Shown here: positions 28,094 to 38,588 of the stretch, piece after piece
Numbering within the stretch: position 1 is the stretch's first letter
How the letters are laid out: every line of letters starts with the position of its first letter
Origin: Nitrococcus sp.
Lineage (GTDB): Bacteria > Pseudomonadota > Gammaproteobacteria > Nitrococcales > Nitrococcaceae
DNA: 40,136 nucleotides
Direction of reading: 5' to 3'
Assembly: GCA_030452265.1 (NCBI GenBank)
Contig: JAKDMQ010000003.1
Span: 1 to 40,136 of the forward strand
The notes under the pieces: model-generated
What the model was told of the DNA's origin: nothing
Database searches by the model: none
Seen by the model: only the letters and a program-made list of their open reading frames with translations
Translations under genes and position numbers: made by a program

Positions 28094-29110
28094 TCAGGCC
28101 GGCTCCTGACAGACATAGCGCAGGTACTTGAGCATGCCGCGCGCGTTGGCGAAGGCGGGATGGGGCGCGATGGCCTGATTGGAAAACCAGTCCTGGATGT
28201 CGTCGGCGAGCGCGAGGGCGCCGCCACCGACGAACAGGATCCGCTCGAGCTCGGCGCCACGCCCGAGCTGGCGCTCCGTCTCGGCATGCAGGCGCTCTAC
28301 GAGCTCTCGGCGCGCAGCGCGGACTTGATCCGCCACATCGTGGCTCTTGCCGAACAGGCGGACCACGCCGGTACGCACGGCCTCCTCGGTCGCCTGTTCG
28401 GAGAGCTCCTCGAGGTCGAACCTTGCGCGGATTGCGGCCGCCACCTGGCGCTTGAGATCGAGCAACCCACAGCGAAGCGATCCGGAACTGTCGTGGCGCA
28501 CGGCCTCCCCGGCGACCACGACGAAATCCGTGGTCCGGCCACCGATATCGATCACCGCGACGGGCGCGCCGAGTCGCTCGGCCTCGAGCTGCACGCCGCC
28601 ATTCGCCTCGCAGATGACGTGGTCGTACCAGGCCGCAAGCGCTTCGGGGATGACCTCGTGGAAGGCGATCGCGGCCGGCAGGCGGCCGTCGCTGGGCTGC
28701 ACGGTCTGCTTGAGACTCGCCCGCTTGCGCTCAATGAGCTCCAATCGCTGAGCGCCGTCCTCGAGGTAGTAGCTGCTCACGGGCAAGCCGGAGACTGCAT
28801 GAACCGATTGGCCGGCGAGGCCAGCCTCATGCAGGGCGTGCTGGACGATGGCGCGATTGAGGCCGGAGAAGGGATAGCCGTCGAAGTGCGTCGGCTCGCC
28901 GTCCACCTCGCCGACCGCAAAGCGCGTGTCATCCGTCTCGTACTCGAACACCCGCGGCGCGCTGGCGTTCAGCCAGGTGATGTTCGAGCGACCGATCCGT
29001 GCCCACGATGGGATCGCGATCAATCGTCCATCGGGCAAAGCGATCTTGGTGAACGCATAGCCATCATCGAGGCCGATGCTGATGGGATTCAGGGTCTCGT
29101 TGTCGGCCAC
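28094..29110 (-). CDS. parM: ParM/StbA-like actin-family ATPase
   Basis: GTG 29110 is preferred to GTG 29116, because GGAGG lies 5 bases before 29110 and overlaps 29116. The 338-residue protein has the actin-fold pattern: phosphate-1 loop ISIGLDDGYAFTKIAL, phosphate-2 loop VAVIDIGGRTTDFVVV, and adenosine motif ILFVGGGALALADDI. Such proteins form filaments that push plasmid copies apart. Presence in an ICE beside a ParB homologue, with no ParA seen, suggests that partition of the excised, replicating form relies on a ParM-type system. A ParR-like gene precedes it by 28 bases. Confidence 0.88.
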   Translation of the reverse strand: MADNETLNPISIGLDDGYAFTKIALPDGRLIAIPSWARIGRSNITWLNASAPRVFEYETDDTRFAVGEVDGEPTHFDGYPFSGLNRAIVQHALHEAGLAGQSVHAVSGLPVSSYYLEDGAQRLELIERKRASLKQTVQPSDGRLPAAIAFHEVIPEALAAWYDHVICEANGGVQLEAERLGAPVAVIDIGGRTTDFVVVAGEAVRHDSSGSLRCGLLDLKRQVAAAIRARFDLEELSEQATEEAVRTGVVRLFGKSHDVADQVRAARRELVERLHAETERQLGRGAELERILFVGGGALALADDIQDWFSNQAIAPHPAFANARGMLKYLRYVCQEPA

Positions 29111-29138
29111 GTTCACCTCCGGCTGTTCAACATGGGGT

Positions 29139-31797: not shown

Positions 31798-32430
31798 TCA
31801 CCTGCTGGCGGCGCGTCGTTCTTGGCTCGGTGCTGCTTGTGATCCTGTTACAGGCTGGTCAGCGGGTGCGTAGACGTCACCGTACTCAAGCCAACGCTGC
31901 ACCAGGTTCCAGATCGCACGCATCGATGCGCCCGATTCTTGCTGAATCGCGAGGTACTCTCTGGGGTCCAGTTCCTCGTTCGCGGCCGATTCGAGACGCG
32001 TGGAAAGCGCCCGCCAAAGCCGGTGACCGGTTTCCTCGTCCGGCTCCGGCGGTCGACCGACGGCGGGCTCCAGCGCGAGCATGCGACGCAGCCGGGTGTA
32101 CTCTCTGGAGCCGACACCGAAGAGACTGCGCATCATCTCAAGCGGTGCGTCGGCCTGGAGCAGATCGCGCTGCAGCTCCTCGGTCTCTCGGCTGGCACGC
32201 AGGTTCGCGATCATCGGCCAGAACACTCCGCGATCGAGCGCGATCTTAAGACAGTGCGCTTGCAGCGCGCCCACTCGATAGAGGTCTGCAAGGTTCAGCT
32301 CGCGCAAGGCTTCGATCTCCCTTGGCCCGAACTGCATCGCACGCAGTGCGTGCTGATCACCCTCGGCGAGGCTGCGCATCGCGTAGAGCAACACGGCGGT
32401 GACGAGATCGGCTTCCTTGGTGCCGATCAT
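31798..32430 (-). CDS. DUF2857 family protein
   Basis: The 210-residue protein is helical and contains FGPREIEALRELNLADLYRV, MMRSLFGVGSREYTRLRRML and a C-terminal SGASMRAIWNLVQRWLEYGD. These are conserved blocks of DUF2857, found next to parB in GI-type ICEs. The GVGSREYTRLRRML segment resembles the second half of a helix-turn-helix. Related proteins in some elements are linked with transcription control; no role is shown here. It overlaps parB by 4 bases. Confidence 0.88.
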   Translation of the reverse strand: MIGTKEADLVTAVLLYAMRSLAEGDQHALRAMQFGPREIEALRELNLADLYRVGALQAHCLKIALDRGVFWPMIANLRASRETEELQRDLLQADAPLEMMRSLFGVGSREYTRLRRMLALEPAVGRPPEPDEETGHRLWRALSTRLESAANEELDPREYLAIQQESGASMRAIWNLVQRWLEYGDVYAPADQPVTGSQAAPSQERRAASR

Positions 32431-33986
32431 GCGCGACTCCAGAGGTTCTTATCGTCGGCCGCCGCGTTCCGACGCAGTGCCCGATAGGTGTCCATGAGGC
32501 CCAGAAGATCCTGCCAGTCGCGGTCATCCAGCCGGCACCAGAGTCGGTAGCCCATGTGCCCGGGATCGAGCGTCCAGACGCTGGCGAAGAGCAACCCGGC
32601 GTCCTGGTCGACCAGTGCGCGGCGCAGAACGGATTCCTCCGGCAGGCAGGGTAGCAGTGCTTCGAGCGGCGCAACGGTGAGCTCGGCACACGCGGCAAGG
32701 TGCCACCAGACCATTGACACTTGCGCCAGGGCATCCTCGTCGAGCTGCTCGATTAGCGCCGGATCGGGAACGTCGTGCAGCACGAAGCCGAGACCGTGAC
32801 CGGAGAGTGGGTGTACGAGATCACCGAGGCCGTTGCGCTGGGCGAGTCGGCTCGCGAGGACCCAAAGGCGTGCACGCAGCGACTTCACGTCTGCTTGGGC
32901 TCGCGAACCGATGGAGACGAGTGGTTTTTCGCCTGCGCTATCGTTCTCAGGTTCCTGGTCGCCAACAGGCTCCTGATGTCCAGCGCCAGTCGTGGCCTCG
33001 GCAACCAATCTGCCTGCGTCGGCAGCGGGCGACCCGGTTCCAACGCTTGGCACGGGAGACGCTTGGGTATTCCCAGCGGAGCCTTCTTGCCCGGGCTCTG
33101 TAGATTCCTCGATTGGCGAGTCAACTTGGGCGATCGCCTCTCGCGCAGGGGGCTCGAACTCGCGTCCTGACAACCGCGCCTCGATCTCAAGGCTGACCGC
33201 ATGGATGTTGATGTCCGCCCGCTCGGCAATCTCCGCCTCGAGCGCCCGGCGCAGGTTCGCGATGTCCCATTCCGGCGTGTCGTAGCGCCGGCACAAGGTC
33301 TCGAATGCCTGGTCGTATTCCTCTTGCGTAGCGACGGTACGCTTCAGCCAGATGGTTCGGGCCGCGCGATCGAGCGAGCGGATCTTGGCCACTTGCGGGC
33401 GGCCGAGACCGCCCTCCAAGGCCTGCGAGAGAGCAGGATGAAGCCGCTCCACCGCGTACGCCATCTGTGAGATGAGACCCTGGCTCAGAGCGTAGCCGCA
33501 TCGGCGCAGCGCTTCGGCGAGCTGCGCCTGCGTGAAGGATTCTCCCGCAGCCTCCTCGAGAAACCGCTTGGCATCTGCAACGGCCCGCGCCTTGTCGAGA
33601 AAGGTGAGCTCAGCGCGCAGGTCGTTCTCTTTGAGGTGGGCGAGCAGGACGTCGGCCTCGCGGGTCCATGGCCGAATCACACAGGGGATGGCGGCAAAAC
33701 GCTTCTCGCCGGTTTCTTCGAACAGTTCCTTCAGAATCCGCAGCCGGGTATTTCCGCCGGCATGGACGATGTAGTGGGCTTCGCCGGGTCGCTGGGTGAC
33801 CACGAGCGGCTGGGTGAGGCCGTCAACCCGAATCGAGTCCTTGATGCGGTGGTATTCCACATTGGGCACACGCCGGGGATCGTGCTCGTACGGGTTGATT
33901 CGGGCGACATCGAGCGTCATGAGCTCCAGGGGCGCGCCGCACGCCTCTCCGGCGCCGGCATCACGTCGGTCCGCCTTGTTGGTCAT
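32427..33986 (-). CDS. parB: ParB-family protein of the ICE
   Basis: The 519-residue protein has the ParB/Srx N-terminal domain: RINPYEHDPRRVPNVEYHRI, IKDSIRVDGLTQPLVVTQRP and YIVHAGGNTRLRIL, the ICE-type form of the CTP-binding box II. The central helix-turn-helix is AQLAEALRRCGYALSQGLIS. The last 250 residues are a Pro/Ser/Glu-rich linker and a C-terminal domain with many Leu and Trp. It matches PFGI-1/PRTRC-type ParB. No parA lies beside it, unusual for the family. Its start overlaps the Cro-like stop by 4 bases, so it is under the same promoter. Confidence 0.9.
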   Translation of the reverse strand: MTNKADRRDAGAGEACGAPLELMTLDVARINPYEHDPRRVPNVEYHRIKDSIRVDGLTQPLVVTQRPGEAHYIVHAGGNTRLRILKELFEETGEKRFAAIPCVIRPWTREADVLLAHLKENDLRAELTFLDKARAVADAKRFLEEAAGESFTQAQLAEALRRCGYALSQGLISQMAYAVERLHPALSQALEGGLGRPQVAKIRSLDRAARTIWLKRTVATQEEYDQAFETLCRRYDTPEWDIANLRRALEAEIAERADINIHAVSLEIEARLSGREFEPPAREAIAQVDSPIEESTEPGQEGSAGNTQASPVPSVGTGSPAADAGRLVAEATTGAGHQEPVGDQEPENDSAGEKPLVSIGSRAQADVKSLRARLWVLASRLAQRNGLGDLVHPLSGHGLGFVLHDVPDPALIEQLDEDALAQVSMVWWHLAACAELTVAPLEALLPCLPEESVLRRALVDQDAGLLFASVWTLDPGHMGYRLWCRLDDRDWQDLLGLMDTYRALRRNAAADDKNLWSRA

Positions 33987-34258
33987 GGCCGATCTTCCGC
34001 GACCATGAGGTAGGGCTCGGCGCGCTCGTAGATTTCCGGGTAGCGCACCAGGCTCTCGCTGGGCACGGTTTCGAGCCGGCCGCCGGAGCGTGCCGCGACT
34101 TCCCGGGTTTGCGCCTCGATACGCGCCGCCATCAGGGCGCTGGCGTAGCGATGCTTGCCGGCCAACTGGTAGAGGTAGGACACCGAGTCATTGCAGACGA
34201 CCGCAACGTCTGCACGCTCCCGCTTACTCGCTTCCCTGAGAAATTGTATTAGCTCCAT
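33983..34258 (-). CDS. Cro/YdaS-like small DNA-binding protein
   Basis: ATG 34258 (MELIQFLREASKRERADVAV) gives 91 residues; the frame upstream runs through the repressor promoter and has no family character. The helices ELIQFLREASKRERADVAVVC and DSVSYLYQLAGKHRYASALM look like a Cro or YdaS-type helix-turn-helix, and the rest is like small regulators at the head of ICE operons. It is divergent from the repressor gene and heads the operon running into parB. The -10 box (TAATGT, plus 34266-34271) is 7 bases from the ATG, so the message may be leaderless. Confidence 0.7.
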   Translation of the reverse strand: MELIQFLREASKRERADVAVVCNDSVSYLYQLAGKHRYASALMAARIEAQTREVAARSGGRLETVPSESLVRYPEIYERAEPYLMVAEDRP

Positions 34259-34352
34259 GCGCAAGACATTAGCGCTATGCCGATCCTCTTGCCAAGACGC
34301 AGTTAGCAGATTTATCTTTACCACTGTGCTAAACACGAACCCGGCGTATGCG
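34259..34352. promoter_or_regulatory. Divergent promoters and operators of the repressor/Cro-like switch
   Basis: For the repressor (plus): -35 TTGCCA (34289-34294), 17 bases, -10 TTATCT (34312-34317), with TTAGCA (34303-34308) in the spacer and TGCTAA (34327-34332) near the start of transcription. For the Cro-like gene (minus): -35 TTGGCA (34290-34295), 18 bases, -10 TAATGT (34266-34271), overlapped by the palindrome TAGCGCTA (34270-34277). The two -35 boxes overlap. The TGCTAA motif recurs before alpA. A repressor bound here could control both directions. Confidence 0.7.
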
Positions 34353-35030
34353 ATGAAGCGAAGGCATGAGGCGATGCGGCTGAGCAATCTCGAGCTCCTG
34401 GTTGCCGAGGCCGGATCGGCTGCCGCGCTTGCCCGCCTCGCCAATACGAGCGAGTCCTACTTGAGTCAGATTCGCAACCAGCTCACCACGCCGAAGGGAA
34501 CGCCACGCGGCGTCGGTGACGATCTGGCGACGAAGCTCGAGCGGGCCATGAGCAAGCCAAACGGATGGATGGATGAATCTCATGAACTGGTCACGGAAGA
34601 TCAGGCCATATTCAACGCCGAACCCGGTCCTGAGGTCCGCGGCTTGCACCCGCTGATCTCATGGGTGCAGGCCGGAGGATGGGTGGAAATCGCGGGCAAC
34701 TTCGAACTTGGTGATGCCGAGGACCTGTTGCCGTGTCCGGTCCGGTGTAGCCGCGAAACGTTCGTGCTAAGGGTGCGCGGGGAAAGCATGGAGCCGAAAT
34801 TCCACGATGGCGACCTGATCTTCGTTGATCCCCAGGTCACCACGGTCAGCGGCCGCTACGTCGTGGTTCGCTTAGAGGACTCCCACGAGGCGACCTTCAA
34901 GCAGTTGATCATCGAAGAAGGGCGTCAGTACCTGAAAGCCCTTAACCCCGACTGGCCTCACCGCATCATCGAGGTGAACACCGATGCCACGATATGCGGC
35001 GTCGTCGTGTTCAAGGGCGAGGTGGTGTGA
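34353..35030 (+). CDS. CI/LexA-type repressor with S24 peptidase domain
   Basis: From ATG 34353 the protein has 225 residues. The N-terminal helix-turn-helix covers NLELLVAEAGSAAALARLAN and SESYLSQIRNQ. A cleavable hinge VQAGGW (Ala107-Gly108) follows, then the S24 domain with catalytic Ser145 in RGESMEPKF and Lys183 in TFKQL. This is the full set for RecA-stimulated self-cleavage, so DNA damage should lift repression of the divergent parB operon and of alpA, leading to excision and transfer. A later ATG at 34377 is possible. Confidence 0.9.
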   Translation: MKRRHEAMRLSNLELLVAEAGSAAALARLANTSESYLSQIRNQLTTPKGTPRGVGDDLATKLERAMSKPNGWMDESHELVTEDQAIFNAEPGPEVRGLHPLISWVQAGGWVEIAGNFELGDAEDLLPCPVRCSRETFVLRVRGESMEPKFHDGDLIFVDPQVTTVSGRYVVVRLEDSHEATFKQLIIEEGRQYLKALNPDWPHRIIEVNTDATICGVVVFKGEVV

Positions 35031-35138
35031 ACGTACTCGCTTACTGCGTGAACCGAGGTAGGAAGACCTTAGGCGGGTACCGGTGTCGTGAATGCATCGC
35101 TCACGGCGCGTCTCGCTAATCAAGTCCGGCAATCCTGA

Positions 35139-35221
35139 TTGACATTTGCTGGCCCAGCAAAGTGCTTATCATTTTGCTAAACATTCCACCTTTGTCAAAA
35201 AAGTTCGCACCGTGCTAATGT
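35139..35221 (+). promoter_or_regulatory. alpA promoter region with operator motifs
   Basis: A promoter TTGTCA (35192-35197), 18 bases, TAATGT (35216-35221) is overlapped by TGCTAA (35213-35218), just as in the Cro-like promoter (both read GCTAATGTC). A second TGCTAA lies at 35175-35180. Upstream, a consensus TTGACA (35139-35144) is followed by the palindrome TTTGCTGG-C-CCAGCAAA (35145-35161). The region is AT-rich compared with its surroundings. The shared motif suggests control by the S24 repressor. Confidence 0.6.
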
Positions 35222-35281
35222 CGATGGCATTGCACAGTCTGAACCCCGGGGTCTGCATTGTGCAGGGACAGGAGAGAATCG

Positions 35282-35527
35282 ATGGACGAAGGATACCGAA
35301 CCCTGGCGAGAAAGACACTCATCAATCGGAAGACTCTGCTGGCTATGATCCCGCTGTCGGAACGCTCCATTTTCAACATGGAGAAGCGCGGAGACTTTCC
35401 ATGCCGCATCGCACTCACAAGCCGTAACGTCGCCTGGGACCTGGCCGAAGTGGAGGAATGGATCGAGTCGAGAAAGGAATCCGGAGCACAGGCGGCGCGG
35501 CCTGGCGCTAGTGACGTCGCCCGATAG
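35282..35527 (+). CDS. alpA: AlpA-family regulator (putative excision/integrase control)
   Basis: ATG 35282 has AGGAG 7 bases upstream. The 81-residue protein has the AlpA/MerR-like winged helix: TLINRKTLLAMIPLSERSIF followed by NMEKRGDFPCRIAL and NVAWDLAEVEEWIESRK. AlpA-type proteins activate integrase genes or act as excisionases in P4-like elements. Here it is convergent with the integrase gene, overlapping it by 20 bases at the 3' ends, so direct promoter activation is less simple; an excisionase role at the AATACCATG boxes is possible. Confidence 0.82.
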   Translation: MDEGYRTLARKTLINRKTLLAMIPLSERSIFNMEKRGDFPCRIALTSRNVAWDLAEVEEWIESRKESGAQAARPGASDVAR

Positions 35528-36707
35528 TCCACTCGTCGATCATGTCAGCCCAGTCCTGCAACATCGCCGTACGCTGTTCCCGGTACTCGGCCTTATTGTA
35601 GACAGCTCTCACGCCCCTCTGCTCATGGGCAAGGCACTTCTCAATCCAATCTGTATTGTAGCCTGCCTCGTGCAGCAGTGTGCTGGCCGTGCGGCGAAGA
35701 TCGTGAGGACCGAACTTGCCGAGCGGCTCACCAGCCTTCTGGGCAGCTTGGTACACCAGACTCAGGACCCGATTCAAGGTTGCGCTGCTCAGGGGCAGAT
35801 CCGTGTCATACCGCGATGGGAGTACATATTCAGAGCCGCCGGCAAAAGTTTTGAGTGCAATGAAGATATCGAGCGCCTGACGAGACAGGAATACTAGATG
35901 CGGGTTCCTCCGTTTCATCCGCTCTTTTGGGATAGTCCAAAGTGCCTCGCTGAAATTTACCTCCGACCATGTGGCATTGGACAGCTCCGATTTTCGAACC
36001 ATCGTTAGCAATAGCAGCTTGACCGCCGCCCTAAACTGCAGTGACGTCCCCACCCGCTCCACGTACCGATACATCAAACCAATCTCGGCTGGTGTCAACG
36101 CGCGGTCGCGCGGCTCGAATCTGGCGATGCTTGTCGGGCGCACCATCTCGGCCGGGTTCTCTACCTTCTGCCCGCGTTCGATCGCCCAACGATAGACCTG
36201 CAACACCACTTCACGGGCATGCACCGCCGTGGCTGGGGCTCCCCTGTCAACGATGGCATCGGTCAATGCCCGCAAATCCTCATGCGTGACTTCGCTTAAC
36301 TTTTGATTACCAAACCGCGTCTTCAGCTCGCGTATATACACCGACTTGCGCATATCGCGCGTCGAGTCAGCCATTTGATAGCCACGCAGCCACTTTTCGG
36401 CCCATGCGCCGAAGGTCTTGGCATCCTTCACGCGCGTCTTGTCACGTGACTTTTCCCTTGCCGGTGATTTGCCGGCAGAAACCATCTTCTTCGCCTCGTT
36501 CAGTCGTTCTCGCGCTTCCGACAATGTGATGCCACCTGATCCATACAGGCCTATGGTCAGCGTCTCCTGTCGGCCGCTGATCGCATAGTTGTACCGGAAG
36601 GAGATGGACCCTGCTGGCGTCACCGCTACGTAGAGTCCGTCCCGGTCGTTCACCTTGTAGAGCTTGTCTCTAGGCTTCAGGTTTCGCAGTTTGGTATCGG
36701 TCAGCAT
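35508..36707 (-). CDS. int: P4-type tyrosine integrase of the ICE
   Basis: The 399-residue protein has the N-terminal arm-binding DUF4102 domain (MLTDTKLRNLKPRDKLYKVN, DGLYVAVTPAGSISFRYNY), a SAM-like core-binding domain and a catalytic domain. Catalytic residues seen are Arg in LTMVRKSELSNATW, the HxxR box as HDLRRTAST, His in LAHEQRG and Tyr in AVYNKAEY. It lies beside the 3' end of guaA, a known target of genomic-island integrases. Intact. The AT-rich region in front of it carries repeats that could be arm-type sites. Confidence 0.95.
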   Translation of the reverse strand: MLTDTKLRNLKPRDKLYKVNDRDGLYVAVTPAGSISFRYNYAISGRQETLTIGLYGSGGITLSEARERLNEAKKMVSAGKSPAREKSRDKTRVKDAKTFGAWAEKWLRGYQMADSTRDMRKSVYIRELKTRFGNQKLSEVTHEDLRALTDAIVDRGAPATAVHAREVVLQVYRWAIERGQKVENPAEMVRPTSIARFEPRDRALTPAEIGLMYRYVERVGTSLQFRAAVKLLLLTMVRKSELSNATWSEVNFSEALWTIPKERMKRRNPHLVFLSRQALDIFIALKTFAGGSEYVLPSRYDTDLPLSSATLNRVLSLVYQAAQKAGEPLGKFGPHDLRRTASTLLHEAGYNTDWIEKCLAHEQRGVRAVYNKAEYREQRTAMLQDWADMIDEWTIGRRH

Positions 36708-36730
36708 GACTACTTCTTCTTTCTTGCGGC

Positions 36731-36885
36731 AATACCATGACTCAAATCATAGCTATTATTACTATTTTATATGTACTAATCAATATGTTATGTAATTATA
36801 ATACCATGTTTACCCGATCCAAACTGTTATGGTATTCAGTCGCGATTGAGGCAGCGAGTCTGATGATACCATCAACAATACCATG
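36731..36885. repeat. AATACCATG repeats between int and guaA (arm-type sites)
   Basis: AATACCATG occurs exactly at 36731-36739, 36800-36808 and 36877-36885. A variant GATACCATC lies at 36865-36873, and an inverted ATGGTATT lies at 36829-36836. All are in the 306-base AT-rich gap 36708-37013, which holds no credible gene. The place next to the insertion site fits arm-type binding sites for the integrase, or AlpA/excisionase sites. Confidence 0.65.
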
Positions 36886-37013
36886 GAAAAAAGCTGCTTG
36901 GGCGTGCGTGTCGTTGCTAGTCAGTGCCCGACAAAAACGACGCGAATGCAGCTATGATGCGGGATTACGGTTGATTTGATGCTTGGTGGTGCCGGTGGGT
37001 GCCAGACGGGGGA

Positions 37014-38588
37014 TCATTCCCACTCGATCGTGGCTGGTGGTTTGCCGGATATGTCATAGACAACCCGGGATATTCCCTCGGTTTCGTTGATGATCCGGCG
37101 CGAGACCTTTCCCAGTAGCTCATAAGGCAGATGGGCCCATTTCGCGGTCATATAATCGGTAGTCTCCACCGCTCGCAGCGCGATTACGTATTCATAGCGC
37201 CGCCCGTCTCCGGTGACACCCACGGACTTCACTGGCAGAAAGACCGCAAACGCCTGGCTGACTCGATCGTAGAGCTCGCAACGGCGCAACTCCTCGATAA
37301 AGATGGCATCCGCTTGGCGCAGCGCCTGCGCGTGTTCCTTGCGCACCTCACCCAGAATCCGCACGCCGAGACCCGGCCCTGGAAACGGATGGCGATAAAC
37401 TACGTCGGCGGGTAATCCGAGCTCCAGCCCGATGCTGCGGACCTCGTCTTTGAACAGTGTCTGCAGCGGCTCTAGCAATCGCAGGTTCATTTGCTCTGGG
37501 AGGCCACCGACATTGTGGTGCGACTTGATGAGCTGTGCCTTGCCAGTCTTAGCGCCGGCGGATTCGATCACATCGGGATAAATAGTGCCCTGGGCGAGCC
37601 AGGTAACGTCAAGCTTACTGGCTTCTTCCTCGAAGACCTCAATGAAGGTACGCCCGATGAGCTTGCGCTTATCCTCAGGGTCAACCACCCCCGCCAAGCG
37701 CGCGAGGAAGCGATCCTCGGCATTGACGTAGATCACCCGCGCGCCCATATGACGGACGAACGTCGCCATGACCTGCTTGCCCTCGTCGAGCCGCAGCAAG
37801 CCATTGTCCACGAAGACACATGTGAGCTGATCGCCGATCGCCTGCTGCAGCAAGGCGGCCAGCACCGAGGAATCAACGCCGCCAGATAGACCAAGCAGCA
37901 CGCTATCTCGACCCACCTGCTCCCGGATACGGCGGATACTGTGCTCGATGATGTTGCCGGCGGTCCATCGCCCCGAGCAGCCACAAATCTCACCAACGAA
38001 GCGCTGCAGTATTCGCTGTCCCTGGGGCGTGTGGGTCACCTCCGGATGAAACTGCAACCCATAAAAACGCCGCTCATCATCCCCAATGCCGGCAATGGGA
38101 GTGCTCTCGGTGCCGGCAATCACCTTGAAGCCGTCGGGCAGCACGCTGACCCGGTCGCCGTGGCTCATCCAGACATCCAGCAGGCCGTGCCCTTCGGCAT
38201 TAGTGTGGTCCTCGATACCGAGCAGCAGCCAAGAATGACCGCGCGCACGCACCTGCGCATAGCCAAATTCCTTTTGCGTGCTGGGCTCGACTCGTCCGCC
38301 AAGCTGCGTTGCCATCGCCTGCATGCCGTAACAAATACCAAGCACCGGCACCCCCAGTCGAAAGACGCTATCGGGGATGCGCGGCGCATTATCGATGTGC
38401 ACCGATTCCGGGCCGCCGGTGAGGATGATTCCCATGGGGGCAAACGCCTCGATCTCGCGCGCCGGCCAGTCGCAGGGGTGAATCTCGCAGTAGACGTTGG
38501 CTTGGCGAATGCGCCGGGCGATGAGCTGCGTGTACTGGGAGCCGAAGTCGAGGATGAGGATGCGATGGGCGTGGATGTCCTGGGGCAT
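37014..38588 (-). CDS. guaA: GMP synthase (glutamine-hydrolysing)
   Basis: The 524-residue enzyme converts XMP to GMP with ATP and glutamine. The N-terminal class I glutaminase domain has [16 protein letters not shown] and the nucleophile Cys in GICYGMQ, with the His-Glu pair in [10 protein letters not shown]. The ATP-pyrophosphatase domain has the P-loop [16 protein letters not shown], and the dimerisation domain ends PPATIEWE, the normal family end. So the ICE insertion at its 3' end left the coding sequence whole. The start follows guaB after 111 bases, as in a gammaproteobacterial guaBA operon. Confidence 0.97.

Follow-up and report, generated by a model that had tools for sequence, protein, structure and literature searches.

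Integrative and conjugative elements (ICEs) of the BisDC type are widespread and carry adaptive genes; to our knowledge, the only input to BisDC that has been worked out, that of ICEclc, is linked to growth phase and metabolites. In ICEclc, BisC carries a DUF2857 domain and BisD a ParB domain, and BisDC is sufficient to activate the integrase promoter and drive transfer; the alpA promoter is started there by TciR and BisR, and alpA-parA-shi-bisDC form one transcript (PMC7423338). For a switch in which an S24-type repressor stands over a transfer activator, the precedent is SetR of SXT (PMC4542580). Our search of the open-access literature turned up no BisDC element described as carrying an S24/Cro switch; the components themselves are known, and their wiring in BisDC-type elements seems to be undescribed.

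The DNA analysed here (the window) is a 40-kb stretch at the start of its contig, in a draft genome of 419 contigs. Judged by its genes, it holds much of an ICE of the ICEclc/PFGI-1 kind: conjugation genes of that type were recognised through profile matches to TraC (TIGR03744, PFL_4706 type; 1325 bits), TOL-type TraD (TIGR03754; 1041 bits) and a TIGR03752 protein (483 bits), and further profile matches show that the element also encodes an STY4528-family and an AcaB-family protein. Four genomes of the same genus align with the window only from 37014-37018 onward, starting at the guaA stop codon, and by this comparison the element is inserted at guaA, with one of its ends at the 3’ end of that gene. 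A second copy of the guaA core is absent from the assembly and the other element end was not found in it, the contig starting at window base 1. The integrase type of the window is also found at guaA in two relatives (L005 and L012). Between the integrase start and guaA (36707-37014) lie several AATACCATG-like and GGTGCC/CCAGTGCCAGAC repeats, which recur in the same two relatives (L005, 4740-5050; L012, 2188-2500) and are possibly integrase arm or AlpA sites. Elsewhere inside the element, a ParM/actin-like segregation gene (28094-29116; StbA_N, MreB-like_C) suggests active segregation of the excised form.

The reading that we favour, and consider probable, is that a lysogeny-type S24/Cro switch controls both BisDC transfer and alpA excision on this element and is released by the SOS response. 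A dimer of the self-cleaving S24 repressor would bind a 15-bp dyad, TTAGCA-N3-TGCTAA, and in doing so hold down the cro-bisD-bisC and alpA promoters and regulate its own promoter. On DNA damage, RecA would be activated and the repressor would cleave itself between Ala107 and Gly108; the freed cro-bisDC promoter would then allow BisDC to be made and transfer to be turned on, AlpA would be made and, with the integrase, excise the element, and the Cro-like protein would occupy the same sites and keep the repressor off. The cro message would probably be leaderless, with bisD and bisC translated by coupling at overlapping stop and start codons. Repressor binding, cleavage, the role of Cro, the start sites and induction are modelled here on CI/Cro and on SetR. 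The initial annotation had already proposed that DNA damage could start excision, and the operators before alpA support this excision branch; the proposal was incomplete in that it missed the transfer branch through cro-bisDC.

Table 1. Features of the control region and the guaA end of the element (window coordinates; operator scores are matches to the 12 arm positions of the dyad).
Feature	Position	Strand	Details
BisC-type protein (DUF2857)	31798..32430	-	PF11198, 151 bits
BisD-type ParB-domain protein	32427..33986	-	TIGR03764 ICE_PFGI_1_parB, 269 bits versus cut-off 143.75
Cro-like protein	33983..34258	-	91 aa; first gene of predicted cro-bisD-bisC operon; divergent from repressor
Candidate cro promoter	34266..34295	-	TTGGCA-18-TAATGT; -35 at 34295-34290, -10 at 34271-34266; 7 bp to ATG
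Predicted operator TTAGCGCTATGCCGA	34269..34283		Over cro -10/spacer; 9/12; in most relatives 10/12 at same place
Candidate repressor promoter	34289..34318	+	TTGCCA-18-TATCTT; -35 at 34289-34294, -10 at 34313-34318; 9/12
Predicted operator TTACCACTGTGCTAA	34318..34332		At repressor promoter; 11/12
Repressor, Peptidase_S24 domain	34353..35030	+	225 aa; PF00717, 96 bits, E 1.1e-27; ATG at 34353
Predicted upstream alpA operator TTATCATTTTGCTAA	35166..35180		11/12
Candidate alpA promoter	35192..35221	+	TTGTCA-18-TAATGT; -35 at 35192-35197, -10 at 35216-35221; extended TGC before -10
Predicted operator TTCGCACCGTGCTAA	35204..35218		Over alpA -10/spacer; 11/12; 38 bp past 35166 site
AlpA-family excision regulator/excisionase	35282..35527	+	PF05930, 45.5 bits; normal ribosome site AGGAG, anti-SD energy -7.4
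Tyrosine integrase	35508..36707	-	PF00589, 76 bits; convergent with alpA; adjoins guaA
Attachment core, ICE end	37014..37031		3’ end of guaA; where four same-genus genomes start matching

A scan of relatives gave the 15-bp dyad as the operator candidate, TGCTAA and TTAGCA being its two arms. That these motifs occur in both promoter regions had been noticed before and is confirmed, with three of the five TGCTAA in the window lying in the two intergenic stretches. The initial annotation had taken GCTAATGTC, found at the cro and alpA promoters, for the operator itself; a search of the 40 kb does return exactly two copies (minus strand, 34265-34273; plus strand, 35214-35222), but only the longer dyad is present at every site, and it replaced this string as the operator candidate. 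Across the whole 40 kb there is no site of at least 10/12 besides the three 11/12 sites (34318, 35166 and 35204), and all three fall within 345 bp of intergenic DNA, where 0.001 would be expected per 345 bp at that composition; 60 simulated windows held on average 0.23 sites scoring 10/12 or more and zero at 11/12, the dyad consensus having been drawn partly from the window’s own sites, which leaves the independent weight with the relatives. Near-perfect dyads, those with no more than one mismatch in 12, number 17 at a spacer of 3 in the window plus relatives, and zero at all other spacers from 0 to 11; inverted pairs at spacers of 12-13 were set aside, as they are few and most of them represent an extra half-site before the same operators. 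All 12 aligned loci have an identical right arm, TGCTAA, on the repressor side. Judged from the sequence, shared dyad operators lie on both the cro and the repressor promoters. A further partial dyad, TTAGCTCCATGCGCA (34249-34263; 9/12), runs across the cro start codon, and all but one of the compared loci retain the CTAA at cro codons 3-4 (CTA for Leu), a pattern as if it were kept for binding and not for coding.

The scan of genome contigs yielded 16 further repressor loci (L018, a very short match, was left aside), and another three came from genome searches. Wherever a locus is long enough to include both genes, the Cro-like gene and the repressor occur together, and the operator sites are at the same places in loci of several lineages. 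In L021, which was found after the motif had been defined, the cro-repressor sites score 10/12 and 11/12, and two 11/12 sites precede alpA. As a control, a sample of 26 BisD-type ParB loci was drawn from 369 genomes of the class: the three that have the repressor (the window included) each contain three or four sites scoring 10/12 or better, and the 23 lacking the repressor contain no such site. The annotated arrangement of one operator common to three promoters together with a cleavable repressor is supported, including by independent relatives. In a tree of BisD plus BisC, the repressor cassette is confined to one clade of 16 rows (11 with the cassette, 5 without) and requires a minimum of three changes, which may represent one gain and two losses. 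ParA lies upstream of bisD in most distant BisD loci of the sample, like in ICEclc. Three close BisDC elements that lack repressor and operator (L033, L035 and L050, at about 790-1060) encode, upstream of bisD, an AlpA protein and an HTH-like protein of 88 aa (KEIAAYLKRSEAVVRDRI), and these may be another BisDC input.

The repressor has an S24 self-cleavage domain with the catalytic Ser and Lys, as seen from both the domain match and the residues: the Ala-Gly cleavage site read earlier is present as A107-G108, together with S145 and K183. Across the relatives, Gly108, Ser145 and Lys183 are invariant and their spacing fits self-cleavage of the LexA/CI/UmuD type, which argues against relief by something other than SOS (an antirepressor, or a cell-density or metabolic signal) with the S24 domain serving mainly for dimerisation. 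We regard such relief as unlikely; in its favour, the cleavage site, A107-G108 in all other loci, reads Val-Gly in L009. The structure model of the repressor (pLDDT 54) is too poor to use for the DNA-binding fold. Directly behind the repressor in L007 (5763-10685) and L011 (3174-8098), in place of excision genes, sit similar large proteins of at least 1641 aa, cut by the locus end, with only a weak AAA_16 match.

On the other side of the divergent region, the cro stop codon overlaps the bisD start codon via ATGA (33983-33986), and bisD and bisC overlap by 4 bases (32427-32430); cro, bisD and bisC are very likely on a common message. The order of a ParB-domain BisD followed by a DUF2857 BisC is the same as in ICEclc (PMC7423338), and the pair is presumed, by domains and gene order, to be the transfer activator, which would most likely place the activator of the entire element under the cro promoter. 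Because cro heads an operon encoding a BisD/BisC-type activator, the proposed switch would govern both transfer and excision. The Cro-like protein has no match among the Pfam and NCBIfam models. The best folds for its AlphaFold model (pLDDT 81) are YdaS of the E. coli prophage CP-933P and, next, the N-terminal domains of lambda CI; Foldseek assigned the YdaS match a probability of 0.97-0.99 but weak E-values of 0.09-0.4, and a fold like that of YdaS and the lambda CI N-terminal domain is likely and no more. It is by this fold match, with its weak E-values, that we identify a divergent small HTH gene of the Cro kind. When the profiles of Cro and the repressor were compared (P 0.014, probability 3%), the outcome was suggestive at the SYLxQ helix only, and it is not taken as evidence. 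Plasmid and viral contig collections contained no Cro relatives, and these collections therefore show no recent loan from phage.

Members of the AlpA family are required for the excision of other elements or take part in it (PMC11773190). The two operators before the excision genes are 37-38 bp apart in 12 loci including the window (38 bp there), and 48 bp apart in L009, and this pair precedes about five unrelated excision cassettes: AlpA with the guaA integrase (an Arm3-integrase) in the window, L005, L012, L014 and L021; another AlpA with another integrase (a second AlpA/Arm3-integrase kind) in L004, L013 and L015; an Arm-DNA-bind_2 integrase in L002 and L009, with a DUF1233 excisionase in L009; an HTH_17 protein with an integrase in L008; and, in L016, a small protein and an integrase with a lambda-type arm domain (Arm1). 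The carrier of L004, Sedimenticola selenatireducens, is a cultured organism. In L014, about 2.5 kb is inserted between the repressor and the operator pair, and the pair remains with alpA. Five loci (L003, L006, L007, L011 and L017) have no excision gene behind the repressor and no site of at least 10/12 nearby on that side, and this absence of the pair where no excision gene follows is as predicted for a repressor-controlled excision promoter. At the same time, the cro-repressor operators persist in loci without an excision gene beside the repressor, and almost every locus has a conserved operator and -10 at 7-8 bp ahead of cro. Together with the 4-base overlaps that make a single cro-bisD-bisC message very likely, these observations leave it quite improbable that the repressor gates alpA alone and that cro and BisDC have other, unseen promoters or inputs (as with BisR in ICEclc), even though more distant ICEclc-type elements use a ParA/alpA layout and other regulators upstream of bisD (PMC7423338).

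The letters and coordinates of the annotated promoters were checked and borne out: the cro and alpA promoters have a common -10 (TAATGT) and 18-bp spacers, and the -35 boxes of cro and the repressor overlap by five bases. Such overlapping boxes were found only in the window’s own subgroup, and the cro spacer of 18 bp is 17 bp in most relatives. TAATGT agrees with the -10 consensus at three of six positions (first T, A and last T), making it a weak -10, and a plain consensus scan misses both promoters, so that their support comes from conservation. TTGCCA-18-TATCTT is one of two promoter matches of at least 9/12 in 1.2 kb, where 0.3 would be expected, and the repressor promoter varies between subgroups. 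A minus-strand promoter at 35198-35171 (10/12) was rejected: it is not conserved in the L005 alignment and was taken as a chance product of the palindromic TTTGTCAAA. That the TGCTAA boxes, which overlap the -10 at the cro and alpA promoters, are merely extended -10 elements kept for RNA polymerase is highly unlikely, given that the left half TTAnCA is retained at a fixed 3-bp spacing, that the 35166 site is not at any -10 fitting its gene, and that all 23 BisD loci without the repressor are also without sites.

The cro -10 was correctly placed seven bases before the ATG, and the distance is 7 or 8 bases in nearly all relatives. There is no ribosome site at the cro start in the window, and anti-SD energies in the relatives are just average. 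A short or absent leader is supported by these independent relatives, and a leaderless cro message is plausible. The exception is L008 (299-345), which has the same TGCTAATGT followed by about 20 extra bases, with AAGGA ahead of the cro ATG, suggesting that a leader can be acquired; with its cro -10 unchanged and a ribosome site added, it offers a natural comparison for leaderless translation. L003 keeps the usual cro spacing, but its -10 is decayed (GCTACCGTC). An extended -10 of the repressor (TGCTATATT or TGCTATAGT) lies 6-7 bases from the ATG in the Sedimenticola/Thiodiazotropha group, L008, L010 and L021, and the repressor message looks leaderless in many relatives too, though not in the window; a leaderless message of the repressor gene setR is known in SXT (PMC4542580). 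The window and two near relatives are without the repressor-proximal extended -10 and have a promoter further upstream instead, which makes the predicted repressor promoter and start of the window the least certain element of the switch.

We give roughly even chances to a broader proposal, in which a family of BisDC-type elements swapped metabolic or bistable control for a phage-type SOS switch, with a portable operator pair before at least five unrelated excision cassettes and a leaderless early message (in some relatives the repressor message too). If this is true, transfer and excision would fire together whichever integrase is acquired. A cleavable repressor would make BisDC elements move upon DNA damage, the damage caused by some antibiotics included, and one operator standing in front of different excision cassettes would illustrate how elements built of modules keep excision coordinated with transfer. 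The predicted sites, being short and exact, open the model to direct tests.

Among known systems, the locus resembles the SetR module of SXT/R391 (PMC4542580) in its S24 repressor of the self-cleaving type with Ala-Gly cleavage site, its adjacent divergent early promoter, its several partly dyadic operators and the predicted repression of a master activator (FlhCD-like in SXT). It differs from SXT/R391 in several ways: ParB-domain BisD plus DUF2857 BisC take the place of SetC/SetD as activator, the excision-gene promoter has an operator pair of its own, the message that may be leaderless is that of cro where in SXT it is that of setR, the Cro is YdaS-like, and a guaA integrase is present with AlpA. 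SetC/SetD and the SXT backbone were not found in the window, where the activators match TIGR03764 and DUF2857 and the backbone is of PFL_4706/TOL type; by these genes, the module would work like the SetR switch of SXT, yet it is not an SXT member. With ICEclc (PMC7423338) the element shares the bisD-bisC pair, here the presumed master activator, alpA in the control region and related conjugation genes. Unlike ICEclc, it has no ParA in the control stretch, the S24 repressor/Cro pair would be the input, and alpA lies next to the integrase on the other strand; in place of an ICEclc-style alpA-parA upstream of bisD we find cro and the S24 repressor. By gene content, the element belongs with the BisDC-type elements but without their known input. 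Finally, divergent repressor and Cro genes with common dyad operators are as in lambda CI/Cro; unlike lambda and CP-933P, this is a conjugative element, in which an early operon of transfer regulators replaces the lytic genes and the predicted operators also stand on the excision promoter.
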